This document shows positions 17,611-34,471 of a stretch of 35,990 nucleotides of DNA, one piece after another. Positions within the stretch are counted from its first letter, which is position 1. Each line of letters starts with the position of its first letter. This DNA comes from an uncultured Actinomycetes bacterium (GTDB lineage: Bacteria > Actinomycetota > Actinomycetes > Nanopelagicales > Nanopelagicaceae): contig CAIJYZ010000028.1 of assembly GCA_903825015.1 (NCBI GenBank), positions 1-35,990 of the forward strand, given 5' to 3'. The notes under the pieces are model-generated. The model ran no database searches and was not told where the DNA came from. It saw only the letters and a program-made list of their open reading frames with translations. Both the position numbers and the translations under genes were made by a program.

Positions 17611-18318
17611 ATGTCACTAGAAGAAATTTATCGCCGCAATCTTGAGCACCGCACACACCGAGCAGGTTGGTTACGTGCTGCAGTATTAGGTGCAAACGAT
17701 GGACTCGTATCAACAGCATCACTCATGATCGGTGTTGCAGCCGCGGGCAAGAATGATTTCCTAATTACGGCCGGTCTTGCAGGAATTTCAGCTGGTGCGA
17801 TGTCGATGGCAGTTGGCGAATACGTTTCAGTGCGTTCACAAAATGATGTCGAAGAATCAGATAGATTATTAGAAATTGCTCACCTTGCAGCAGATCCAGA
17901 AGGTGAACTACTCGAACTTCAACATATTTATATTGATCGTGGTTTATCACCTGAACTCGCTCTCACGGTCGCGACAGAGATGCATAAGAAAGATCCTTTG
18001 GCTGCTCACCTTCGCGATGAATTAGGGCAACACCCACATACCAAAGCCCGACCAGTGCAAGCTGCCATCGCATCAGCATCCAGCTTTATTGTCGGAGGCT
18101 TTGTTCCATTTCTTGGAGCATTTGCACCAACCCTTGGCGCTAAGGCCTGGAGCATCGTGGCATTTACCGTCGCTGGTTTAGTTATCACAGGCATAGTCAG
18201 CGCTCGAACCGCCGGATCAAAAATCCTTGTTCCAACTGTTCGAGTCATCCTTGGTGGCTGCTTAGGCATGCTCATCACGGCCGTTATTGGTCAGATTGCC
18301 AACGTCTCAGGGATTTAA
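17611..18318 (+). CDS. VIT1/CCC1-family Fe2+/Mn2+ transporter
   Basis: A 235-residue membrane protein of the VIT1/CCC1 (DUF125) family, which moves iron or manganese out of the cytoplasm. The N-terminal HRAGWLRAAVLGANDGLVSTASLMIGV segment, split here by normal family positions, is the hallmark first helix. It is followed by the second helix with the EYVSVRSQ block, a cytoplasmic Glu-rich metal-binding helix pair, and three C-terminal helices. It is 21 bases downstream of lgt and may be the end of the long run or have its own promoter. Substrate (Fe versus Mn) cannot be decided. Confidence 0.88.
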   Translation: MSLEEIYRRNLEHRTHRAGWLRAAVLGANDGLVSTASLMIGVAAAGKNDFLITAGLAGISAGAMSMAVGEYVSVRSQNDVEESDRLLEIAHLAADPEGELLELQHIYIDRGLSPELALTVATEMHKKDPLAAHLRDELGQHPHTKARPVQAAIASASSFIVGGFVPFLGAFAPTLGAKAWSIVAFTVAGLVITGIVSARTAGSKILVPTVRVILGGCLGMLITAVIGQIANVSGI

Positions 18319-18374
18319 TTTCTTTAATAATCGCTAGGTTTGTTGCTACTCTTTGCCAGCGTTAAAGGGCCAAG

Positions 18375-18402
18375 GTTGTCCCGCAATTTCTTTATGGACA
18401 AC
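18375..18402 (+). promoter_or_regulatory. Hairpin in the gltB leader next to the ribosome site
   Basis: GTTGTCC (18375-18381) and GGACAAC (18396-18402) form a perfect 7-bp stem with a 14-base AT-rich loop. The stem ends one base before the AGGAG ribosome site (18403-18407) of gltB. A possible -10 (TACTCT, 18347-18352) lies upstream, giving a leader of about 60 bases. No T-tract follows, so it is not an intrinsic terminator. A role in translation control is inference. Confidence 0.5.
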
Positions 18403-18416
18403 AGGAGCTCATCGCC

Positions 18417-21400
18417 GTGGTTTTGTCTTCTAACTATCCGCCAGCACAAGGTCTCTATGACCCTGCCCAAGAACATGATGCTTGCGGTGTGGCGATGGTT
18501 GCAACGCTTAACAAAGTAGCAACGCATGAGATTGTAGAAAAAGCTTTAACGGCGCTTCGAAATTTAGAACATCGCGGTGCATCGGGTGCTGAGCCAGATA
18601 GCGGCGACGGCGCAGGAATCCTTATTCGTGTTCCAGATAATTTCTATCAAGCGGTTACAGAATTTGATTTACCTGCGGCGGGATCCTACGCAACAGGTAT
18701 TGCTTTTGTTGAACAAGGCGTAGATGTTAAATCAGCTGTCGAAAAGATTGCTAAAGAAGAAGGTCTCATTGTCTTAGGTTGGCGCGAACTTCCAATCAAC
18801 TCATCATCTCTTGGTAAAACTGCGCTTTCGGTAATGCCTAATTTTCATCAGTTATTTATTGCTGGTGCCAACGGTGAAAAAAATATCAATCTTGATCGTT
18901 TGGCTTTTTGCCTGCGCAAACGTGCCGAGCATGGTCTAAAAGTTTATTTCCCTTCTCTTTCTTCTCAGACCATTGTTTACAAGGGAATGCTTACAACTGG
19001 TCAACTCGAAGAGTTTTTCCCTGATCTCTCAGATGAGCGTGTAGTTTCACCACTTGCTTTAGTGCACTCCCGTTTTTCTACTAATACTTTTCCATCATGG
19101 CCACTTGCTCACCCCTATCGTTTTATTGCGCACAATGGTGAAATTAATACAGTTAAGGGAAACCGAAACTGGATGCGCGCCCGTGAATCTCTTCTTGCAA
19201 GTGATGTAATCCCAGGTGATCTCAAGCGGTTATTTCCAATTGTTGAAATGTCTGGCAGCGATTCGGCTTCATTCGATGAAGTTCTCGAACTCTTGTATCT
19301 AGGTGGCCGTTCGTTACCGCATGCGGTTCTCATGATGATTCCAGAAGCATGGGAAAACCATGAAACGATGCCGCAAAACCGTCGGGATTTTTACGCTTTT
19401 CATGCCTCTCTTATGGAGCCATGGGATGGCCCAGCATGCGTAACATTTACAGACGGCAATCAAGTTGGTGCGGTTCTAGATCGAAATGGCTTACGCCCAT
19501 CGCGTTTTTGGGTAACCAATGACGGCCTTGTCGTCTTGGCATCTGAAGTTGGTGTTCTAGATATTCCAGCGCAAAACATTGCCCGTAAAGGTCGCTTACA
19601 ACCAGGCAAAATGTTCTTAGTCGATATTGAAGCAGGGCGCATTATCGAAGATGGCGAAATCAAAGATCAATTAGCCGATGCCGCTCCATATAGCGATTGG
19701 TTGCATGCTGGAATTGTTAAGTTAAATGAACTTCCAGCGCGCGAACATATTGTTTATCCCCACTCTTCCGTTTTACGTCGTCAACGTGCCTTTGGGTACA
19801 CAGAAGAAGAAGTACGCATTCTTATAACTCCAATGGCCAAGAACGGCATGGAGCCCCTTGGTTCTATGGGAACAGATACTCCAATTGCTGCAATATCAAA
19901 TAAGCCTCGCCTAATTTTTGACTACTTCTCGCAACTTTTTGCTCAAGTCACTAACCCACCGTTGGATGCGATCCGCGAAGAGTTGGTTACAAGTCTTGGT
20001 ACATCAATGGGACCAGAACATAACCTTCTCGATCCCGGTCCAAGTAGCTGTCGCCAAATCTCATTGGCATTTCCTGTTATTGATAATGATGAACTCGCAA
20101 AAATAATCCATGTCAATGCTGATGGCGATCATCCTGGTCTTGGCGCACATGTAGTTCGAGGACTTTTCTTTGTTGCAGGCGGGGGAGAGTCTCTTAGAGA
20201 TCGTCTTGATGCAATTAGAGAAGAAGTCTCTCAAGCTATCGATGATGGTGCGCGCATCATTGTTTTATCTGATCGCGATGCAGATGCCGAAGAAGCTCCA
20301 ATTCCTTCTCTGCTACTTACATCTGCAGTGCACCACCATTTGATTCGCGAAAAAAGTCGCACCAAAGTTGGGCTAGTAGTTGAAGCAGGAGATGTCCGTG
20401 AAGTTCATCATGTTGCGCTCCTGATTGGTTACGGCGCTGCCGCAGTTAACCCTTACCTTGCAATGGAAACCGCTGAAGATTTAGTTCTACAGGGTGTTAT
20501 CACTGGAATCACTCCTGAAAAAGCAGTACGCAACTTGATTAAGAGTCTTGGAAAAGGTGTCTTAAAAGTGATGTCCAAGATGGGCATCAGCACAATCGCT
20601 TCATATACAGGCGCACAAGTATTTGAAGCTATTGGTCTTAGCCAAGAGCTAGTAGATGAATATTTTGTGGGTACCACTTCGCGCTTGGGCGGCGTAAATC
20701 TTGATGTGATTGCGCAAGAAACAATTGCTCGTCACCACATTGCATATCCGCCAGGGGGAGCAGTTCCCGGAACAAAACGATTACCTATCGGTGGCGAATA
20801 TCAATGGCGTCGCGAAGGTGAACCGCATTTATTTGATCCAGAAACTGTCTTTACTTTGCAACATTCCACACGCAATAAGCGCTATGACGTCTTTAAGCGT
20901 TATACCAACCGTGTAAATGATCAAAGCACTCGTTTGATGACCCTTCGTGGCCTCTTTGCATTTAATGAAGGAGTGCGCCCAGCGATTTCAATCGATGAAG
21001 TTGAATCAGCTTCATCGATCATTAAGCGATTCTCGACCGGTGCGATGTCATATGGCTCGGTATCTCAAGAAGTTCACGAAACTTTAGCAATTGCTATGAA
21101 TCGCCTTGGCGGAAAATCCAACACTGGCGAAGGCGGCGAAGACCCTGAGCGCTTTTTGCCAATGGCTAATGGAGATTCAAAACGCTCTTCGATTAAGCAG
21201 GTTGCATCAGGACGCTTTGGTGTTACAAGTGATTACCTTGTTAACGCTGATGACATTCAAATCAAAATCGCGCAAGGAGCAAAGCCTGGTGAAGGCGGCC
21301 AATTACCAGGCAACAAGGTTTATCCGTGGATTGCAAAGGTTCGTTACTCAACTCCAGGCGTTGGTTTAATTTCACCACCCCCACATCACGACATTTATTC

Positions 21401-24390: not shown

Positions 24391-25830
24391 ATGCGTAGAG
24401 CGAAAATTGTGTGCACGATGGGTCCAGCCGTTGAATCTCCGGAAAAAGTGAAGGAGCTCATCGACGCCGGAATGAATATGGCTCGCCTGAACCTTTCACA
24501 TGGATCTTATGAAGAGCATCAGGGACGACTCGATCGTGTTCGTGCTGCAGCCAAAGAAGCAGGCCGACCTGTGGCAATCCTTGTCGATCTTCAAGGTCCA
24601 AAGATTCGCCTTGCTCGCTTTAAAGCAGGACCACATGATTTAGCACGCGGAGATATATTTACAATTACAACTGATGAAGTTGAAGGCACAAAAGAGCGCG
24701 TGGGGACTACATATAAAGGTTTACCAGGGGATTGCAAGGCCGGAGATCGCATTCTCATCGACGATGGAAAAGTAACTGTTGAAGTAATTGAAATTAAAGG
24801 CAATGACGTAATCACTAAAGTCATCGAGCCAGGTGCTGTAAGCAACAATAAGGGAATCAATCTTCCTGGGGTAGCAGTTTCGGTCCCAGCCCTTTCTGAA
24901 AAAGATATTGATGATTTGCGTTGGGGACTTCGCGCCGGCGCCGATTTCATCGCACTTTCCTTTGTTCGAAGCGCCGAAGATATTAAAGACGTTCACAAGA
25001 TTATGGATGAAGAAGGAATTCGAGTTCCCGTAATTGCAAAGATCGAAAAACCACAGGCGGTAGAAAATCTTGCAGAGATTGTGGATGCATTTGATGCCAT
25101 CATGGTGGCTCGTGGAGATCTTGGTGTAGAGCTTCCAATTGAAGATGTTCCGCTGGTGCAGAAGCAGTGCGTAGAACTTGCTCGCGATATGGCCAAACCC
25201 GTAATCGTTGCTACTCAAATGCTGGATTCAATGATTACAAACTCACGTCCCACACGGGCCGAAGCTACTGACTGTGCCAATGCCGTCCTTGATGGCGCCG
25301 ATGCCTTGATGCTTTCGGGTGAAACAAGTGTCGGCGAATTTGCAATCGAAGCTGTGCAGACTATGGCCCGCATTATTCAAAAGACAGAAGAAGGTGGACT
25401 TGACCGTATTCGCCCAATTAAAACAGCGCCACGCACTAAGGGTGGAGCCATCACAAAGGCTGCAACTGAAGTTGGTGCAATTGTTGGTGCAAAGTATTTG
25501 GTTGCTTTCACTCAAAGTGGAGACTCTGCTCGTCGTATGTCGAGACTACGTTCACCGATTCCGATTCTTGCGATGACTCCTGAAGTTGGCACGTATAACC
25601 GTTTAGCCCTTTCATGGGGTGTCGAATCGATGCTGACTCCAGTTGTTGGTGCAACAGATGAGATGGTTAAGCTCGTAGACAGCGTACTTATCGAGTCAGG
25701 TCGCGCCGATGTAGGCGATGAAGTGATGATTGTTGCTGGTTCTCCTCCTGGAATTCCTGGCTCAACGAACGCAATGCGCGTTCACCGTGTAGGAGATGCA
25801 GTTGGCGGAGTAGCTGCGGCTTACCGCTAA
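24391..25830 (+). CDS. pyk: Pyruvate kinase
   Basis: Glycolytic enzyme converting phosphoenolpyruvate and ADP to pyruvate and ATP. It has 479 residues. Visible features: the N-terminal RRAKIVCTMGPA start, the ARLNLSHG block, the B-domain insert (about 70-170), the catalytic lysine motif VIAKIEKPQA, the MVARGDLGVE loop and a C-terminal allosteric domain. The ATG follows AGGTAGGA by a few bases and lies 9 bases after gltD, so the three genes may be co-transcribed. Next to GltBD it links carbon flow to glutamate synthesis, but shared regulation is not shown. Confidence 0.96.
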   Translation: MRRAKIVCTMGPAVESPEKVKELIDAGMNMARLNLSHGSYEEHQGRLDRVRAAAKEAGRPVAILVDLQGPKIRLARFKAGPHDLARGDIFTITTDEVEGTKERVGTTYKGLPGDCKAGDRILIDDGKVTVEVIEIKGNDVITKVIEPGAVSNNKGINLPGVAVSVPALSEKDIDDLRWGLRAGADFIALSFVRSAEDIKDVHKIMDEEGIRVPVIAKIEKPQAVENLAEIVDAFDAIMVARGDLGVELPIEDVPLVQKQCVELARDMAKPVIVATQMLDSMITNSRPTRAEATDCANAVLDGADALMLSGETSVGEFAIEAVQTMARIIQKTEEGGLDRIRPIKTAPRTKGGAITKAATEVGAIVGAKYLVAFTQSGDSARRMSRLRSPIPILAMTPEVGTYNRLALSWGVESMLTPVVGATDEMVKLVDSVLIESGRADVGDEVMIVAGSPPGIPGSTNAMRVHRVGDAVGGVAAAYR

Positions 25831-25855
25831 GATTGGCTCCGTTCGCATATCGAAA

Positions 25856-25928
25856 GCCTCGGTACTCCAACGGTAGAGAGGGCAGTCTCAAACACTGCAC
25901 AGTGTCGGTTCAAATCCGACTCGGGGCA
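25856..25928 (+). tRNA. tRNA with anticodon CAA (Leu by anticodon), class I shape
   Basis: A 73-base cloverleaf: acceptor 25856-25862 pairs with 25921-25927 (7 bp, with G-T pairs), T8/A9, a 3-bp D stem (25865-25867 with 25878-25880) with a GG-containing loop, anticodon stem GCAGT/ACTGC (25882-25886 with 25894-25898), loop CTCAAAC giving anticodon CAA at 25889-25891, variable region of 5 bases (25899-25903), T stem GTCGG/CCGAC with loop TTCAAAT, and A73. CCA is not encoded. CAA reads leucine UUG, but leucine tRNAs normally have a long variable arm, which is missing here. It lies between pyk and the ANTAR gene. Confidence 0.88.
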
Positions 25929-25959
25929 CTCACTGCATCTGTGAAAGGATGAGTAGAAC

Positions 25960-26535
25960 ATGAGCGTTCGCATTCTGGTTGCCGAAGATGAAGCGTTAAT
26001 CCGCATGGATCTCGTCGAAATGTTGCAAGATGCTGGTTATGAAGTTGTTGCACAGGCAACTAATGGTCAAGAAGCAATTGATCTTGCAGTTGAGTTCAAA
26101 CCCGATTTAGCAATTCTCGATGTGAAGATGCCAATCCTTGATGGAATTTCTGCAGCGGAAAAGATTATTGATTTAGCGCCAGTTCTTATGCTGACTGCAT
26201 TTTCTCAAAAAGAGTTAATTGATCGCGCGCGTGATGCCGGTGTTATGGCATATGTTGTTAAGCCATTTACAATCGGCGATCTAATTCCGGCAATCGAAAT
26301 TGCAATCAGTCGACATTCTCAAATGCGCTCACTAGCCGCCGAAGTTGCCGATCTGCATGATCGACTTGAAACTCGGAAAATAATTGATCGCGCTAAAGGT
26401 ATTTTGATGAAAGCGCTAAATCTTTCAGAGCCAGAAGCTTTCTCTTGGATTCAACGAGCAGCGATGGACCGTCGGATGACGATGAAACAGGTAGCCGAGG
26501 CGGTAATTAGCCCCGATGCCGTGCCCGAGCGGTAG
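25960..26535 (+). CDS. pdtaR: REC-ANTAR response regulator (PdtaR type)
   Basis: A two-component regulator that acts on RNA. It has 191 residues: a receiver domain (about 3-120) with acidic pocket EDE and phospho-acceptor Asp54 (AILDVKMP), a short linker helix, and a C-terminal ANTAR domain (about 130-187, KIIDRAKGILMKALNLSEPEAF). Phosphorylated ANTAR proteins bind paired hexaloop RNA stems and cause antitermination. The mycobacterial homologue pairs with the PdtaS kinase, which is not in this window. A GAAAGGATGAG ribosome site precedes the ATG, 31 bases after the tRNA, with which it may be co-transcribed. Confidence 0.93.
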   Translation: MSVRILVAEDEALIRMDLVEMLQDAGYEVVAQATNGQEAIDLAVEFKPDLAILDVKMPILDGISAAEKIIDLAPVLMLTAFSQKELIDRARDAGVMAYVVKPFTIGDLIPAIEIAISRHSQMRSLAAEVADLHDRLETRKIIDRAKGILMKALNLSEPEAFSWIQRAAMDRRMTMKQVAEAVISPDAVPER

Positions 26536-26557
26536 TTCATTCAACTCTGCACAAAAC

Positions 26558-26573
26558 GTTACATAAATGAAAC
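26558..26573 (+). promoter_or_regulatory. GlnR-like operator upstream of the binding-protein gene
   Basis: GTTAC-N6-GAAAC matches the actinobacterial GlnR half-box pair gTnAC-N6-GaAAc exactly, including the AC-N9-AC spacing. It lies 105 bases before the transporter gene ATG, and possible -10 elements follow at 26578-26583 (TAGGCT) and around 26594-26599 (TCATAT). Only one box pair is seen; a second tandem pair is absent. GlnR-type regulation of nitrogen uptake genes is well known in the phylum, but no glnR gene is in the window. Confidence 0.5.
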
Positions 26574-26606
26574 GAAATAGGCTGTTTTCAGGCTCATATG
26601 GGCTTG

Positions 26607-26677
26607 TTATTCCCTAACCCCTGCCATTACCCTGACCACCTCCCTGTCCCGGGACACAAGAACAGGAAAGGCACTAC
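26607..26677 (+). promoter_or_regulatory. C-rich, G-poor leader with ribosome-site-masking fold
   Basis: Five runs of three or four C lie at 26612-26650 with only three G among about 40 bases, a composition like a Rho loading site; the opposite strand is correspondingly G-rich. CCTGT (26643-26647) can pair with ACAGG (26662-26666) and CCT (26639-26641) with AGG (26669-26671), covering the ribosome site AGGAAAGG at 26664-26671. A competing perfect palindrome, TGTCCCGGGACA, occupies 26645-26656. Regulation by switching between folds is inference. Confidence 0.45.
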
Positions 26678-27826
26678 ATGAACAAGAAGATCAAGCAATC
26701 GCTTGCCATTGTTACTGCTGCAGCCCTTGCATTTGGGCTAGGTTCAGTTTCAACAGCTAGTGCAGCTACAAAGACTTTCTCAATTGCATACCAAGGTCCA
26801 CTTTCAGGTGGAGAAGCATCAACTGGTATTGATGAGCAGAACGCAGTTAAGTACGCTGCAAAGCTTTTCATGGCAGCAAACAAGGGTTACACAATCAAGG
26901 TTGTCTCTGTTGACGATCAGGGAGATCCAGCTGTTGCATCAACAGTTGCTCCAGGAATCGGCGCTAACAAGAACATTCTTGGTGTTGTAGGACCTGCTTA
27001 CTCAGGTGCAACAATCGCATCACTTCCATATTACAAGGCTGGCGGATTAGCACTTATCTCTCCATCAGCAACTCGCGTATCTCTAACAGATCCAACTTCA
27101 CCTGACTTCGGCGGACCAGTTTTCCACCGTGTTGTAGGTAAAGACGATCTACAGGGTCCAGCTTTGGCTAAGTACGCAACAGCAGGCGTTTCAAATGCAA
27201 AGGTTTTCGTTTTCGATGACCAATCAGCATATGCAGTACCTCTTCGTGGCTTCGTAGAAGCAGGATTAAAGAAGGTTGCTGGAGCAACACTTGTTGGCGG
27301 AGACTCAGTTCCAAATACAACTACAGACTTCAGCCCAACAGTTGCAAAGATTAAGACATCTGGCGCAACAGTTGTTATCTACACTGGTTACTACAGCCAA
27401 GCTGCTGTATTCATTAAGCAGCTTCGTGACTCAGGTTCAACAGCAGTATTTGCTGGTGGCGACGGAGTATTCAACCAGGAGTTCCCAAAGCTTGCAGGAG
27501 CTGCAGCTGAAGGTTCAAAGGTAACTGGCGTTGGCGGACTTGCAGGAATCAGCGCAAAGCTAGAAGCTGATTTCAAGAAGAAGATGGGCGTTTCATCTGG
27601 TGTGTACTCAGTAGAGGCATTCGATGCAGCAAACATCTTCCTTTCAGGCATCAAGGCTGGAAAGACAACTCGCGCTGCAATGCTTAAGTATGTAAATGCA
27701 TACTCAGGCAAGAGCATCTCTGGAAACACAATTAAGTTCAACAAGAATGGCGACATTTCTTACGGACTATTTGCTGGTTTCACATCTAAGAACGGTGTTC
27801 TAGTTAACACAGGTATCGTTAAGTAA
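26678..27826 (+). CDS. livK: ABC transporter substrate-binding protein, branched-chain amino acid (LivK) family
   Basis: Extracellular binding protein of a HAAT-family importer for branched-chain amino acids or related compounds. It has 382 residues: basic N-terminus, hydrophobic core, and a signal-peptidase I site of the ASA-A type near residue 30, then a periplasmic-binding fold of the Peripla_BP_6 family. There is no lipobox cysteine, unusual for a monoderm binding protein. Nearly all of about 32 lysines use AAG, unlike neighbouring genes, indicating very high expression. A strong AGGAAAGG site precedes the ATG. A GlnR-like box lies upstream and a large hairpin follows the stop. Ligand is not certain: urea- and amide-binding proteins belong to the same fold family. 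Confidence 0.88.
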   Translation: MNKKIKQSLAIVTAAALAFGLGSVSTASAATKTFSIAYQGPLSGGEASTGIDEQNAVKYAAKLFMAANKGYTIKVVSVDDQGDPAVASTVAPGIGANKNILGVVGPAYSGATIASLPYYKAGGLALISPSATRVSLTDPTSPDFGGPVFHRVVGKDDLQGPALAKYATAGVSNAKVFVFDDQSAYAVPLRGFVEAGLKKVAGATLVGGDSVPNTTTDFSPTVAKIKTSGATVVIYTGYYSQAAVFIKQLRDSGSTAVFAGGDGVFNQEFPKLAGAAAEGSKVTGVGGLAGISAKLEADFKKKMGVSSGVYSVEAFDAANIFLSGIKAGKTTRAAMLKYVNAYSGKSISGNTIKFNKNGDISYGLFAGFTSKNGVLVNTGIVK

Positions 27827-27836
27827 TTAACTAGGA

Positions 27837-27911
27837 CTTACGCTTAACAAGCTGGTGGGTGTTTTGGAAAACTCTTGTAAAAGAGCCCAAGACACCCACT
27901 ACTTGCGTAAG
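27837..27911 (+). other. Long three-tier hairpin between livK and livH
   Basis: Nested pairs: CTTACGC (27837-27843) with GCGTAAG (27905-27911); a 13-bp stem 27855-27867 with 27887-27899, all paired with one G-U; and an apical CTCTT/AAGAG stem (27872-27876 with 27881-27885) with a GTAA loop. It starts 11 bases after the livK stop. No T-run follows, so it is more likely an mRNA-stabilising or partial-termination element that raises livK above the permease genes, an established pattern in binding-protein operons. Confidence 0.7.
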
Positions 27912-27920
27912 GTGTACCTC

Positions 27921-27926
27921 TATACT
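27921..27926 (+). promoter_or_regulatory. Possible -10 element for livH
   Basis: TATACT (5 of 6 to consensus) lies 28 bases before the livH ATG and just beyond the intercistronic hairpin, so a short leader with the AAGGAG ribosome site (27945-27950) would be made. No convincing -35 is present. Confidence 0.4.
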
Positions 27927-27954
27927 CGCGCAGAAGAAATAGCGAAGGAGCACG

Positions 27955-28905
27955 ATGTTTTCAGTACTTATTGATCAGTTCTGGTCGCTGACAATTGCAG
28001 GAATTGCCCTCGGCTTTATATACGTCTTGATCTCCCTCGGTTACACCATGGTTTACGGAGTCTTACGCATGATCAACTTTGCGAACTCTGAAATCTTTAT
28101 GTGGGGAACTTTTGGAACAGTAGTAACTAACCGAGATATTTTTCATTACACGCAGACTTCTGAGCCCGCTCACGGATTTAAATTAGCTCTAGTCCTTATT
28201 ACGAGCTTATTGATGTCAATGTTAGTAGCCGGCCTCACGGCAGTCTTTGTCGAATTTGTCGCATATCGTCGCCTACGCATGAAGGGCACTAATCGTCTTG
28301 CGACTCTCATCTCTGCAATTGGTATTTCAATCGCACTGCAAGAAGTAATGCGTCTGTTGACTAGTTCACGACCTGTTGGATCACCGCGCGTACTTGAAAA
28401 GATTATTTTGACTGAAGTATGGGGCGCAAATATCCGCCTAGATACAGTCATCACAATCATTGCTGCGGCAATCATCTTCTTTATCCTTGAGCGTTTCATC
28501 AAATTGTCTCGTATGGGTAAAGCAATTCGCGCAGTTTCACAGAACGAAGATGCTGCAAAGCTCATGGGAGTAAACCTCAACCGTGTAATCACGACAACAT
28601 TTCTTGTTGGTGGTTTAGCAACGGGCGCCGCAGGCTTCTTTTACATAACGGTATTTGAGTACACAAAGTTCAATATTGGTTTCACGATGGGTATGGCCGC
28701 TTTTACAGCAGCGGTGCTTGGTGGAATTGGAAATATTCGCGGAGCGTTCTTCGGAGGACTCACATTGGGTCTGCTCGAAGTTTACGCTTCAGCAATTCTT
28801 GGAACTCAATGGAAGGCAGTAACTGTCTTCATCGTCTTAGTTCTTGTTCTTCTCTTCAAGCCAAATGGTTTATTTGGTGAAGCCGTTCAGACAACGAGGG
28901 CATAA
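27955..28905 (+). CDS. livH: Branched-chain amino-acid ABC transporter permease (LivH family)
   Basis: One of two membrane subunits of the importer. It has 316 residues with about eight hydrophobic helices. The family signature LGYTMVYGVLRMINFANSE near the N-terminus and the cytoplasmic loop SRMGKAIRAVSQNEDAAKLMGVN, which contacts the ATPases, are both present. An AAGGAG ribosome site lies 4 bases before the ATG. livM starts 3 bases after its stop. Confidence 0.92.
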   Translation: MFSVLIDQFWSLTIAGIALGFIYVLISLGYTMVYGVLRMINFANSEIFMWGTFGTVVTNRDIFHYTQTSEPAHGFKLALVLITSLLMSMLVAGLTAVFVEFVAYRRLRMKGTNRLATLISAIGISIALQEVMRLLTSSRPVGSPRVLEKIILTEVWGANIRLDTVITIIAAAIIFFILERFIKLSRMGKAIRAVSQNEDAAKLMGVNLNRVITTTFLVGGLATGAAGFFYITVFEYTKFNIGFTMGMAAFTAAVLGGIGNIRGAFFGGLTLGLLEVYASAILGTQWKAVTVFIVLVLVLLFKPNGLFGEAVQTTRA

Positions 28906-28908
28906 CTC

Positions 28909-29946
28909 ATGAAAATTAGAAATTACTGGAACCTTCGCGACTGGGGTGCAGGCATTTGGGAGCGAGCTAATCGCCCTAAGCGCATAGCTATCGCACTGAC
29001 TTCTATATTCCTAGTCGGTCTCTTGCCCTTTGCTGGTGCATCTTTCTTGGCAACTCCAATCGCGGCCTATGACGCAGTTTTGGTTTATCCCGTTGGAATC
29101 TTCGTATTGATGGCACTTGGTCTCAATATTGTGGTTGGAAAGTCAGGAATGCTTGATTTGGGTTACGTTGCATTCTTTGCAATCGGTGCTTACACAATGG
29201 CGCTTATGGGAACTCACACTGGTTTAAATACCTGGGAAATCATGCCTTTTGGTATCGGCTTTGCCATGCTGGCCGGTGTTCTACTTGGTTTGCCTACTCT
29301 TCGTCTACGCGGTGACTACCTAGCAATCGTTACTTTAGGTTTTGGTGAAATCGTTCGCCTAGTCGTTCTTAACTCTTCATGGAGTAAGGGCCCTAATGGA
29401 ATTGCAAACGTTCCAATGCCACCAGATATCGGACCTCTAAAGTTTAAGCTCGATGACCAGAAAGTCTTTTTCTGGGTAGTTGTAACGATGATTTTGTTAA
29501 CAATCTGGATGATCCGCCGCTTAAGTGTGCGACGTCCAGGTCGTGCTTGGGAAGCTATCCGTCAAGATGAGGATGCTGCCGAACTTATGGGTGTCCCAAC
29601 TCTTAAGTACAAGATCTGGTCATTCACATTAGGTGCAGCTGTTGGTGGAGCTGCCGGTGTTCTTTACGCCTCTAAGAATCTATTTATTGCCCCTGAAATG
29701 TTCACGCTCAATGTTTCAATTTTGATTCTATCCTGCGTTGTTTTTGGCGGAATTGGAAACATCTGGGGAGTAGTTGTTGGAGCAACGATTCTTGGCTACC
29801 TGCCAGATCGAATCCGTTTCATCTCAGATGCACGTCTGCTTGTTTTCGGAACAGTTCTAGTTGTTGTAATGAACTTCCGTCCAGATGGACTATTGCCTCG
29901 TAAGAAGCGTGAAAAAGCAATTGTCAAGAAAGAGGTGAATGCATAA
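28909..29946 (+). CDS. livM: Branched-chain amino-acid ABC transporter permease (LivM family)
   Basis: Second membrane subunit, 345 residues, with a basic N-terminal segment of about 25 residues and about nine hydrophobic helices. The LivM block VGKSGMLDLGYVAFFAIGAY, the LRGDYLAIVTLGFGEI segment and the ATPase-contact loop RPGRAWEAIRQDEDAAELMGV are visible. It is translationally tied to both neighbours: 3 bases after livH, and its TAA shares a base with the livG ATG. Confidence 0.92.
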   Translation: MKIRNYWNLRDWGAGIWERANRPKRIAIALTSIFLVGLLPFAGASFLATPIAAYDAVLVYPVGIFVLMALGLNIVVGKSGMLDLGYVAFFAIGAYTMALMGTHTGLNTWEIMPFGIGFAMLAGVLLGLPTLRLRGDYLAIVTLGFGEIVRLVVLNSSWSKGPNGIANVPMPPDIGPLKFKLDDQKVFFWVVVTMILLTIWMIRRLSVRRPGRAWEAIRQDEDAAELMGVPTLKYKIWSFTLGAAVGGAAGVLYASKNLFIAPEMFTLNVSILILSCVVFGGIGNIWGVVVGATILGYLPDRIRFISDARLLVFGTVLVVVMNFRPDGLLPRKKREKAIVKKEVNA

Positions 29947-30722
29947 TGTCCGAGACACTTCTTTCGCTTCAAAATGTCACAATGAAGTTTGGTGGCGTAA
30001 CAGCCCTGGGCGAAGTAAATCTTGAAGTTAAAAAAGGTGAAATCCTTGCCTTGATTGGCCCAAACGGCGCCGGCAAAACAACCGTGTTTAACGTTGTTAC
30101 TGGTGTTTATAAGCCAACTAGCGGATCAATCACTTTTGCTGGTACTAAAATCAATAAGCAGAAGCGTTTTGAGATTACTCAGATGGGAATTGCTCGTACT
30201 TTCCAAAACATTCGTTTATGGGGAGACATGACAACTTTGGAAAACGTGATCACCGCAACCGATGCCCATAAGAAGAGTGGTCTAGTTGGCGCTCTATTTG
30301 GTTTGCCTCGTGCTCGCCGCGAAGAGCGCGAAAATCGCGAACGTGCACATGAGATCTTGAAGTTCATCGGAATCGATGAGTACTCAGATCGATTGGCAAA
30401 GAACTTGCCATATGGAGTTCAGCGACGCCTTGAAATCGCACGTGCAATGGGAACAAATCCTCAGTTACTTCTTTTGGATGAGCCAGCTGCAGGATTCAAC
30501 CCGGCAGAAAAAGTTGAACTTGCTGCTTTGATTAAGCGAATTCGCGATGCTGGTTATACCGTTCTACTCATTGAACATGACATGTCCTTGATTATGGGAA
30601 TCTCAGATCGGGTCGCAGTCCTTGACTTCGGAATCAAGATCGCAGATGACCTACCAAGTAAAGTTCAAAACGATCCAAAGGTTATCGAAGCCTATTTAGG
30701 AGTGCCATCAGATGCGTCTTGA
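29946..30722 (+). CDS. livG: Branched-chain amino-acid ABC transporter ATPase (LivG family)
   Basis: Cytoplasmic ATPase subunit, 258 residues. Walker A GPNGAGKT (about 38-45), Q-loop [11 protein letters not shown], signature-region [15 protein letters not shown] (a Gly-Val-Gln variant of LSGGQ typical of LivG), Walker [11 protein letters not shown] and the switch histidine in IEHDM are visible. The AGFNP segment after Walker B and the extra C-terminal region are LivG features. It overlaps livF by 11 bases, so the two ATPases are made together. Confidence 0.93.
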
Positions 30723-31434
30723 AATTAAAGATCTTCACGTTCACTACGGCAAGATCGAAGCGATTAAGGGAATCTCCGTTGTAGTTAACGAAGGTGAAAT
30801 CGTTACTTTGATTGGTGCTAACGGTGCCGGTAAGACAACAACGTTAAAGACAATCTCTGGTCTGCGCAAAGTAACTTCAGGCGCAATCATCTTTGATGGT
30901 CAGGATATTTCAAATGTTCCAGCGCACGAGCGCGTAGATCTTGGAATCTCACAAGCACCTGAAGGCCGTGGAATTTTCCCTGGTATGACTGTTCTTGAAA
31001 ACCTTGAGATGGGAAAGTTTCACCGCAAGAATCGTAAAGCTGAGATGAGCGAAGATCTCGATAAGGTCTACACACTCTTTCCACGTTTGAAAGAGCGCGT
31101 TGCACAAGCTGGCGGAACTTTATCGGGTGGAGAGCAGCAGATGTTGGCCATTGGCCGCGCATTAATGTCTCGTCCAAAGGTTTTGCTTCTTGATGAGCCA
31201 TCCATGGGTCTTGCACCTCAGATGATTGCAAATATTTTCCGCATTATTACCGAGATTAATAAGACCGGTGTGACTATTTTGCTCGTTGAACAAAATGCTC
31301 AACAAGCACTACAACGCGCGCACCGTGCTTATATTTTGGAGACAGGTAACGTAGTTAAAGAGGCAAAGGCCTCTGACCTACTCAATGATCCTGCTGTGCG
31401 CGAGGCATACCTTGGCACCGGAGCACACTCTTAA
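30712..31434 (+). CDS. livF: Branched-chain amino-acid ABC transporter ATPase (LivF family)
   Basis: Second ATPase subunit, 240 residues. Walker A GANGAGKTT (about 35-43), LivF-specific PEGRGIFPGMTVLENL in the Q-loop region, canonical signature LSGGEQQMLAIGRALM, Walker B LLLDEPSMGLAP and the glutamine-type switch EQNAQ are present. It ends the transporter operon. Its stop is only two bases from the stop of the oppositely oriented thioesterase gene, leaving no room for a separate terminator. Confidence 0.94.
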   Translation: MRLEIKDLHVHYGKIEAIKGISVVVNEGEIVTLIGANGAGKTTTLKTISGLRKVTSGAIIFDGQDISNVPAHERVDLGISQAPEGRGIFPGMTVLENLEMGKFHRKNRKAEMSEDLDKVYTLFPRLKERVAQAGGTLSGGEQQMLAIGRALMSRPKVLLLDEPSMGLAPQMIANIFRIITEINKTGVTILLVEQNAQQALQRAHRAYILETGNVVKEAKASDLLNDPAVREAYLGTGAHS

Positions 31435-31436
31435 AT

Positions 31437-31850
31437 CTAAGCTCGTTCGGCAAGGATTAAGCAGGTAATACGTGCAGTGCATGTGCGTTCGCCTGCTTCA
31501 TTAGTAATAATGATTTCCCAGCTACAGAGCGTTTTTCCTAGTGAAATCGCAGTTGCTACACCAGTTACGATCCCCGTTGTTGCTGACTTATGGTGCGTCG
31601 CATTGATATCTACGCCAACGATTTTTCGATTAGGGCCGGCATGCAATGAAGTTCCAATTGACCCCAAACTTTCAGCAAGTACAACATTTGCACCGCCATG
31701 CAAAAGACCCATTGGTTGAGTATTTCCTTCAACTGGCATGGTGCCCACTAATCGGCCTGGTTGGGCTTCAAGAATTTTGATGCCCATTTTTTGGTCTAAT
31801 GCGCCACTGCCGCGTTCTTTGTAAAACTTAAGAAACTCTTCGTTGATCAT
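31437..31850 (-). CDS. Hotdog-fold acyl-CoA thioesterase (PaaI/4HBT type)
   Basis: A 137-residue single hotdog-domain protein. It carries the HGG motif followed by a conserved glutamate (LLHGGANVVLAESLGS), as in PaaI, EntH and hydroxybenzoyl/DHNA-CoA thioesterases. These hydrolyse aryl- or acyl-CoA esters; the substrate here is unknown. The frame also opens at a TTG (31871), but ATG 31850 is chosen because a TAGAAT -10 lies exactly 7 bases before it. It is convergent with livF and divergent from polA. Confidence 0.85.
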   Translation of the reverse strand: MINEEFLKFYKERGSGALDQKMGIKILEAQPGRLVGTMPVEGNTQPMGLLHGGANVVLAESLGSIGTSLHAGPNRKIVGVDINATHHKSATTGIVTGVATAISLGKTLCSWEIIITNEAGERTCTARITCLILAERA

Positions 31851-31857
31851 GAGAAGT

Positions 31858-31886
31858 ATTCTAGTGTGCAACCTAAGATGTGCCCA
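31858..31886 (-). promoter_or_regulatory. Leaderless promoter of the thioesterase gene
   Basis: On the minus strand TAGAAT (31863 to 31858) is 7 bases before ATG 31850, and TGGGCA (31886 to 31881), 4 of 6 to TTGACA, lies exactly 17 bases further upstream. The -35 overlaps the polA start codon. No ribosome site is present, which fits a leaderless transcript. Confidence 0.55.
31874..31879 (+). promoter_or_regulatory. -10 element of a leaderless polA promoter
   Basis: TAAGAT ends 6 bases before the ATG at 31886, placing the transcription start at the A of ATG. No ribosome site is visible. It lies inside the spacer of the opposing thioesterase promoter. Confidence 0.55.
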
Positions 31887-34471
31887 TGAGCAAACGCCTA
31901 TTACTAATTGATGGGCACTCGATGGCTTACCGAGCTTTTTATGCTCTACCGGCGGAGAATTTCACGACAGCTTCTGGCCAACACACCAATGCCATCTATG
32001 GCTTTGCGACGATGCTTTTATCGCTCTTAAGCAGTGAGAAACCTACGCATGTGGCGGTTGCCTTTGATGTTTCGCGCAAAACTTTTCGATCTGAAATCTT
32101 TCCAGAATATAAAGCTAATCGCGCAAAGACCCCTGATGAATTTCGCTCTCAAATGTCTTACCTTCATGAACTCGTAACAGCCTTTGGTATCGCCCAGTTT
32201 GAAGTTGAAGGTTTTGAGGCCGACGATATTTTAGCGACCATTGCTAAACGGGCCGAAAAGGAAGGCGCCGAAGTTCTCATCTGTACGGGGGATCGTGATT
32301 CATTTCAATTAGTGAATGAAAAGACAACGGTGCTTTACCCAAAGCGTGGGGTTAGCGATTTAGCACGCATGACACCTGAGGCAGTGCAAGAAAAATATGG
32401 AATGTCTCCAACCCAGTATCCAGATTTTGCAGCCTTGCGTGGAGATCCCAGCGACAACCTTCCTTCGATTCCAGGCGTTGGTGAAAAGACTGCCGCAAAA
32501 TGGATCGTTGAATATGGTTCGCTCAAAGAGCTTTTGTCGAATGTAGATAAAGTCGGTGGAAAAGTAGGTCAATCTCTACGTGACTCAATCGATAACGTCA
32601 TCAGAAACCGCGAACTTACTCAGCTAGTTGCCGAAGTCCCACTTGATTTAAGTATCGATGCGCTTTCATGGGTTGGCGTTGATGAAAACCACACGAATCC
32701 GCTATTTGATCGCCTGGAGTTCAAGACGCTCAAAGATCGCATGAAACCAATTCTTATCAAAGGTACGTCAAAAATTGCGCAGCCAGAGTTTCAACTCTTC
32801 GCCGACGAGATGACTGAAGGCGTTTTAACTCCTGCCGAACTCGATACCAAAATTGCCAACCATAAATCAGCAATCGCTATCGCTTATTCTTTAGAAGAAG
32901 AGAAATTGCATCGATATGCTGTTGCATTTTCTAAAGAGGAAGTATTTCTTGTTCATTCTTCAACAATGGGGGATTGGGCCTTTGATACATCTATTCCAAA
33001 AATCGCACATGACGCTAAATCCTTATCTCGAACCAATGGCTTAGTCGGTATTGAGTTTGATACTTCACTGGCGGCATATCTTGTTAACCCCGGCGTGCGT
33101 GCTCAAGAGTTGAAAGATTTGCAAGAACGTTGGGGAGATAGCAGCGCCATAAACTTCTCATCACCGGAGCAAGAGCTGCTAACTAGTGCCAGGGTGCTCT
33201 TCACACTTCGAGAATCACTGACTCGCGAACTCAATGAACGCAATCTCTGGAATCTCTTTGTAGATATGGAGCTTCCCGTAGCAGCCCTTCTTGCCAAGAT
33301 GGAGTCGATCGGAATCGCTGTTGATCGTAAAGAGCTAGAAAAACTTGCTCAGTTCTTTGAAGGCGAAGTAAGCCGCGAGACTAAAGCTGCGCATGATTCA
33401 GTGGGTCACGAATTTAACGTTGCATCTCCTAAACAGTTGCAAGTTGTTTTATTTGACGAACTCAACTTGCCAAAGACTAAGAAGATTAAAACTGGTTACA
33501 CCACCGATGCCGAAAGCCTTGATTGGTTGCATCAAAAGAGCGGGCATCCTGTTCTAACTTCACTGCTTCGTATCCGTGAAACCAAGAAACTGGGCAGCAC
33601 AGTTGAAGGCTTAATTGCAGAGATTGCAAAAGATGGTCGAATCCATACACATTTCCAACAGACTGTTGCTGCAACTGGACGACTTTCATCTACAGGTCCT
33701 AACTTGCAAAACATCCCAGTGCGCACCGAAGAGGGACGCACAATTCGTAACTGCTTTGTAGCGGGTAAAGGTTATGTGGGCTTGTTAACCGCTGATTACA
33801 GCCAGATCGAGATGCGCATCATGGCCCATCTTTCACATGACGAGAAACTCTTAAAGGCCTTTGAATCAGGTGAAGATTTGCATGCAACTGTTGCGGGCCA
33901 AATATTTGGCGTGGCACCAAACGAAGTAGATCCAGAGATGCGCAGACAGATTAAGGCTATGTCATATGGACTCGCATACGGCCTGTCCTCTTATGGTTTG
34001 TCCGCTCAGTTAGATATTTCTCCACCGGCAGCACAGGATTTGATGGACAAGTATTTTGAGCGCTTTGGCGGAATTCGCGATTACTTGAAAGTTGTAGTCG
34101 AGGATGCACGCAAAGTTGGCTATACCGAAACAATCATGGGACGGCGCAGATATCTGCCTGATTTAATGCACGACAATCGTCAGCGCCGCGAAGTTGCAGA
34201 ACGCATGGCGCTCAATGCGCCTATTCAAGGATCGGCAGCAGACATTATTAAGTTGGCGATGCTTAAAGTACAAGCGGCGATTGAGAAAGAAAAACTTGCC
34301 TCAAGATTACTTCTGCAAATTCATGATGAGTTAATTGTTGAAGTTGTAAAGGGTGAAGAAGAAAGAATTACAGCATTAGTAAAACGTGAGATGGGCGTCG
34401 CTTATCCGCTTAAAGCACCACTAGATGTGAATGCAGGACTTGGTCTGACTTGGCATGAAGCGGCGCACTGA
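31886..34471 (+). CDS. polA: DNA polymerase I
   Basis: Repair and Okazaki-fragment polymerase, 861 residues from ATG 31886; a GTG two codons earlier (31880) also opens the frame but lies before the predicted transcription start. Domains: 5'-3' exonuclease/FEN (about 1-290, with DGHSMAYRAF, EADDILAT, TGDRDSFQLV), a degenerate 3'-5' exonuclease-like region (about 310-480) in which the usual DxE of motif I is replaced by hydrophobic and other residues, and the polymerase domain with motif A (TADYSQIEMR), motif B (RRQIKAMSYGLAYG) and motif C (QIHDELIVEV). Loss of proofreading is usual in actinobacterial Pol I. The gene ends flush against the stop of the MFS gene on the other strand. Confidence 0.96.
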   Translation: MSKRLLLIDGHSMAYRAFYALPAENFTTASGQHTNAIYGFATMLLSLLSSEKPTHVAVAFDVSRKTFRSEIFPEYKANRAKTPDEFRSQMSYLHELVTAFGIAQFEVEGFEADDILATIAKRAEKEGAEVLICTGDRDSFQLVNEKTTVLYPKRGVSDLARMTPEAVQEKYGMSPTQYPDFAALRGDPSDNLPSIPGVGEKTAAKWIVEYGSLKELLSNVDKVGGKVGQSLRDSIDNVIRNRELTQLVAEVPLDLSIDALSWVGVDENHTNPLFDRLEFKTLKDRMKPILIKGTSKIAQPEFQLFADEMTEGVLTPAELDTKIANHKSAIAIAYSLEEEKLHRYAVAFSKEEVFLVHSSTMGDWAFDTSIPKIAHDAKSLSRTNGLVGIEFDTSLAAYLVNPGVRAQELKDLQERWGDSSAINFSSPEQELLTSARVLFTLRESLTRELNERNLWNLFVDMELPVAALLAKMESIGIAVDRKELEKLAQFFEGEVSRETKAAHDSVGHEFNVASPKQLQVVLFDELNLPKTKKIKTGYTTDAESLDWLHQKSGHPVLTSLLRIRETKKLGSTVEGLIAEIAKDGRIHTHFQQTVAATGRLSSTGPNLQNIPVRTEEGRTIRNCFVAGKGYVGLLTADYSQIEMRIMAHLSHDEKLLKAFESGEDLHATVAGQIFGVAPNEVDPEMRRQIKAMSYGLAYGLSSYGLSAQLDISPPAAQDLMDKYFERFGGIRDYLKVVVEDARKVGYTETIMGRRRYLPDLMHDNRQRREVAERMALNAPIQGSAADIIKLAMLKVQAAIEKEKLASRLLLQIHDELIVEVVKGEEERITALVKREMGVAYPLKAPLDVNAGLGLTWHEAAH

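Follow-up and report, generated by a model that had tools for sequence, protein, structure and literature searches.

By which regulator is the LIV-type transporter operon of this genome controlled, and does the motif GTTAC-N6-GAAAC ahead of it take any part in that control? The DNA analysed here, 35,990 nucleotides long and called the window below, makes up contig C28 of the draft genome G000 (1.36 Mb, 130 contigs, 86% complete), and the first-pass annotation had read the motif as a GlnR-type operator. With a probability of about 0.8, positions 26558 to 26573 of the forward strand (GTTACATAAATGAAAC) can be taken as a predicted operator to which GlnR, a nitrogen regulator of the OmpR family, would bind. 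The sequence supports this interpretation through the site itself, a glnR gene in the same genome, boxes shared with amt and glnA, conservation and helical phasing upstream of livK in the genus, and a counterpart in probable Streptomyces genomes.

The box and its setting

The site comprises two half-sites, GTTAC (26558-26562) and GAAAC (26569-26573), separated by six bases and arranged on the forward strand as an 11-bp direct repeat. It lies, as had been stated from the letters, in a non-coding gap (142 bp) ahead of the transporter operon, between the stop of an ANTAR gene (26535) and the ATG of livK (26678). All the genes concerned are on the forward strand: a PdtaR-like response regulator with an ANTAR domain (25960-26535; Response_reg, ANTAR), the LivK-type substrate-binding protein (26678-27826; Peripla_BP_6), two LIV-type permeases (27955-28905 and 28909-29946; both BPD_transp_2) and two LIV-type ATPases (29946-30722 and 30712-31434; both ABC_tran and BCA_ABC_TP_C). 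Among solved structures, LivK is closest to binding proteins for leucine and for Leu/Ile/Val (best E 1.9e-25), and the imported substrate is presumably an amino acid. The ANTAR gene, the liv operon and polA stand in one row (25960-34471), and directly upstream of the ANTAR gene there is a tRNA-Leu (anticodon CAA, 25856-25929, 74 nt) without the long variable arm that is usual for tRNA-Leu; in an Rfam search of 25800-27000, the tRNA alone exceeds a gathering threshold.

Between the box and livK, a -35 element (TTGTTA, 26604-26609, forward strand) and a -10 element of the TAnnnT type (TACCCT, 26628-26633, forward strand) can be proposed, with an 18-bp spacer. The TTG of the former, and also the latter, are kept in relatives; a strict sigma-70 scan found neither of the two and called no promoter. 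The box starts 46 bp and ends 30 bp ahead of the proposed -35.

Is the match, taken by itself, more than a coincidence? GTTAC-N6-GAAAC is present as claimed and, in its half-sites and its 6-bp spacing, fits exactly the gTnAc-n6-GaAAc box of the S. coelicolor amtB and glnA promoters, as given in Table 2 of PMC10704036; its fixed bases are ten, and not nine as first counted. Neither the window nor the G000 assembly contains another exact match. Near matches are not enriched: 30 with at most two mismatches were found in the window (27.1 expected), and 60 with at most one mismatch across the genome, where the reversed pattern gives 146. With a matrix built from 33 distinct amt sites, whose own scores range from 9.2 to 22.1, the site reaches a weak 10.3, a value equalled or exceeded at five other places in the window. 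The initial argument that such a box is unlikely by chance holds insofar as chance would seldom produce an exact match within 142 bp, but the gap was picked post hoc and near matches show no enrichment. Counted alone, the exact match is thus weak and not decisive, in view of the absent enrichment and the weak matrix score, and the case rests on conservation and position. Moreover, the textbook form of the box is here partly fortuitous, since amt and glnA of the genus usually carry (G/T)TAAC-N6-G(T/A)AAC.

A GlnR gene and the boxes of other nitrogen genes

Six OmpR-type DNA-binding domains are encoded in the genome. One of them belongs to a protein (L002:1060-1740, contig C3) that matches the PDB entries 8hih (its best match, E 2.6e-82) and 8hig (E 1.4e-80) over nearly its full length, so that the glnR gene whose presence the first-pass annotation had proposed to check does exist. 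Both entries, which bear the PDB names transcriptional regulatory protein and OmpR family regulator, we take to be the GlnR proteins of M. tuberculosis and Amycolatopsis; the entry that is itself named GlnR, 4o1h, matches the receiver at E 5.1e-24. This receiver has no N-terminal acidic pair and keeps D50, and an atypical receiver of precisely this kind is a feature of GlnR. A GNAT-like gene comes next, in the place that mshD occupies in M. tuberculosis. Across the genus, GlnR matches (E<=1e-40) were found in 68 of the 101 genomes, in 28 of the 32 of good quality and in all the single-contig ones (G014, G015, G040, G052, G065, G068, G082, G097). Among the matches listed, absences are confined to draft genomes, and the absence of the gene can therefore not separate GlnR from MtrA.

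MtrA, also of the OmpR family, is indeed the competitor to be weighed. Its gene is encoded in this genome as well (L003; 2gwr, E 3.8e-87), and in Streptomyces, according to PMC9045223 and PMC10704036, it has a consensus highly similar to that of GlnR, competes with it, and binds and represses at amtB, glnR, glnII and glnA. MtrA could, then, be the main binder of the livK box, as a repressor or as a competitor of GlnR, which we consider unlikely on account of two observations discussed below: the position of the box relative to the promoter, and the recovery with GlnR of a homologous site in S. venezuelae. Binding by GlnR and by MtrA need not be mutually exclusive.

Do the genes that GlnR would be expected to control together with the transporter carry the box? 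For each of amt and glnA, 30 loci were listed. Upstream of amt, a GlnR-type box, mostly (G/T)TAAC-N6-GTAAC, was found in 28 of the 30 (the exceptions being L111 and L131) with a crude consensus score that also picks up chance hits. In most of these amt promoters (L110-L139) a second GlnR-type box, for example GTGAC-N6-TTAAC or GTGAC-N6-GAAAC, begins 31 bp after the start of the first, and there is often an extra GTAAC about 33 bp downstream. Upstream of glnA, a site scoring at least 12.8 with the amt matrix is present in 29 of the 30 loci, and the remaining one has just 80 bp of upstream sequence. The glnA of the genome itself carries TTAACACAGCCGTAAC (score 18.3), and its amt is at a contig end, with the upstream region off the contig. 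The boxes of amt and glnA are the same 11-bp direct repeat as that at livK, and the proposal to look for them at these genes is thus borne out. Whereas the livK gap carries one box pair, amt often has two, and the S. coelicolor amtB and glnA promoters (PMC10704036) have two or three. As for urt, none of 61 genomes has a UrtA above the family cut-off. No amt-matrix site of 9 or more lies in 18318-18417, ahead of the large ORF at 18417 that we take as gltB from its size and its reductase neighbour, although the S. venezuelae glutamate synthase carries a GlnR peak (PMC3087709).

Recurrence and helical phase upstream of livK

If the box works as an operator, it would be expected to recur at orthologous promoters. 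The named relatives of this livK are freshwater actinobacteria, including Candidatus Planktophila and Nanopelagicaceae genomes. Upstream regions were analysed for 68 of 87 livK matches (the other 19 include L052 and L054, which end at the gene start), comprising homologues down to about 41% identity and the second liv operons of G038, G082, G008 and G042, and the matrix used was made from amt sites only. In 42 of the 68 regions the best site reached a shuffle p<=0.05, and 41 of these 42 sites start 35-37, 46-47 or 56-57 bp before the TTG of the -35, spacings that differ by one helical turn. Taking all best hits, 58 of the 68 fall in these bins, which were set after inspection of the data, as compared with 8.4% of shuffles and 3/68 with the reversed matrix; in the other 10 regions, no hit lies inside the bins. 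Where three half-sites stand in tandem, the best hit may also be displaced by 11 bp. The pattern persists when the regions are grouped at 60% identity (67 regions), with 32 of 40 groups in the bins. The letters of the box vary by group (GTTAC-N6-GAAAC, GTTAC-N6-GTAAT, ATAAC-N6-GAAAC, GTAAC-N6-GTAAC, GTAAC-N6-TTTAC), and in the nine nearest livK promoters its ten fixed positions average 93% identity. A related box thus recurs at the orthologous genes, in phase with the promoter, and letters that change under a repeat and a helical face that stay would be the pattern expected of an activator site. Separately, some genomes (L199, L202, L203, L206) have another liv operon within a few kb, with its own box of the (G/T)TAAC-N6-GT(A/T)AC type.

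These data suggest how GlnR would act. A head-to-tail dimer would bind the two half-sites of the 11-bp repeat, the first of which begins 46 bp ahead of the livK -35, and in relatives it would keep its helical face even though the spacing shifts by one or two turns. With its end 30 bp ahead of the -35, the box is better placed for an activator than for a repressor that works by blocking, and GlnR would most likely activate the LIV-type operon under nitrogen shortage, together with amt and glnA. The same position speaks against MtrA, which in Streptomyces represses nitrogen genes (PMC9045223 and PMC10704036).

Does this arrangement extend beyond the genus? Of 197 genomes of the class, 175 have the ANTAR gene, and the regions downstream of it were examined in 20 of these 175: 13 contain LIV-type transporter genes, and the nine with a LivK match were read. 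In three genomes that belong to the same family but to different genera, polA directly follows the ANTAR gene. Among six large genomes of the f19 family, five have ATAACAAGA(G/A)(C/A)GTCAC (i.e., ATAAC-N6-GTCAC) upstream of livK, and this site was not found upstream of livK in the sixth (L296). These genomes are probably Streptomyces, judging from the gene neighbourhood and the fit to a published site: according to PMC3087709, GlnR ChIP-chip in S. venezuelae recovered Sven_1634 (homologue of SCO2008, a branched-chain amino acid binding protein) on ATAACAAGACAGTCAC, though the glnR strain showed almost no change in its transcript (-1.3 fold). The livK of the f19 genomes may well be SCO2008 itself, because the sites are near-identical. 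The likeness to the window extends to the kind of gene, to a single box of the a-N6-b type and, in the probable Streptomyces, to its place upstream of livK in the neighbourhood of the ANTAR gene. There are also differences: the letters are not the same, in vivo binding was shown for Sven_1634 and is predicted here, and in most of the probable Streptomyces the liv operon is convergent to the ANTAR gene, while in the window both are on the forward strand. That ChIP-chip placed GlnR at the S. venezuelae homologue weighs against MtrA as the main binder, despite the similarity of the Streptomyces MtrA sites (PMC9045223) and the presence of an MtrA gene in this genome too.

A second element in the livK leader and its implications

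The livK promoter has a further conserved part. Just after the proposed -10, at 26640-26655 of the forward strand, there is an element, CTCCCTGTCCCGGGAC, of which a single copy is present in 62 of the 101 genomes of the genus (backward control, 0), 22-39 bp before the livK match in 58 of these 62, and in the other four before livK starts at contig ends (three) or before a different binding-protein-like gene (G087). It is more conserved than the GlnR-type box, being invariant in the nine nearest relatives, and contains the palindrome TCCCGGGA. The second liv operons carry a leader variant, TCCCCATCCCGGGA, and no similar element was seen in nine leaders from outside the genus.

This conservation, along with the lack of enrichment noted above, could be held to mean that the box is a functionless chance match and that livK is controlled through 26640-26655 only. 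We consider that very improbable: the box recurs in phase across the genus and has its equivalent at the probable Streptomyces homologue, and the conservation of one element leaves room for the other.

The folding of the leader RNA is inconsistent, with z between -2.35 and +1.22 in seven leaders. A hairpin pairing the leader segment CCUCCCUGU with the Shine-Dalgarno region ACAGGAAAGG was tried and discarded, as it folds in some leaders and fails in others. ANTAR proteins act on RNA hairpins. With the ANTAR gene directly upstream and six OmpR-type domains encoded, one may wonder whether the box belongs to the ANTAR regulator encoded next to it or to some other OmpR-type protein. Such an assignment is hardly credible, given that the site is upstream of the promoter, that the leaders have no consistent structure and that the box matches the GlnR consensus forms of Table 2 of PMC10704036.

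Along with GlnR as the probable reader of the box, a more tentative idea is that the livK promoter is a two-part switch, in which the phased GlnR box would be combined with a livK-only element (TCCCNNTCCCGGGA) at the proposed transcript start, to which an undescribed regulator or RNA mechanism would respond, perhaps one that senses the imported amino acid; we find this somewhat doubtful. Were it true, import would need both nitrogen shortage and a second signal.

For this lineage the GlnR-type operator is new, but its kind is known, and a homologous Streptomyces gene has a counterpart of it; since a site of the same kind was already known before a related Streptomyces gene, the find is sound yet unsurprising. 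In full-text literature searches, GlnR was not found together with "Nanopelagic" or "freshwater Actinobacteria"; it was found mentioned along with Planktophila, the two being left unconnected in the text available. In lakes, streamlined freshwater actinobacteria reach very high abundance and subsist on scarce dissolved nitrogen, and a GlnR regulon that joins an amino-acid importer to amt and glnA would be a direct and testable link from nitrogen supply to uptake. Furthermore, the phase-locked spacing classes may offer a natural test of the contact between GlnR and RNA polymerase.
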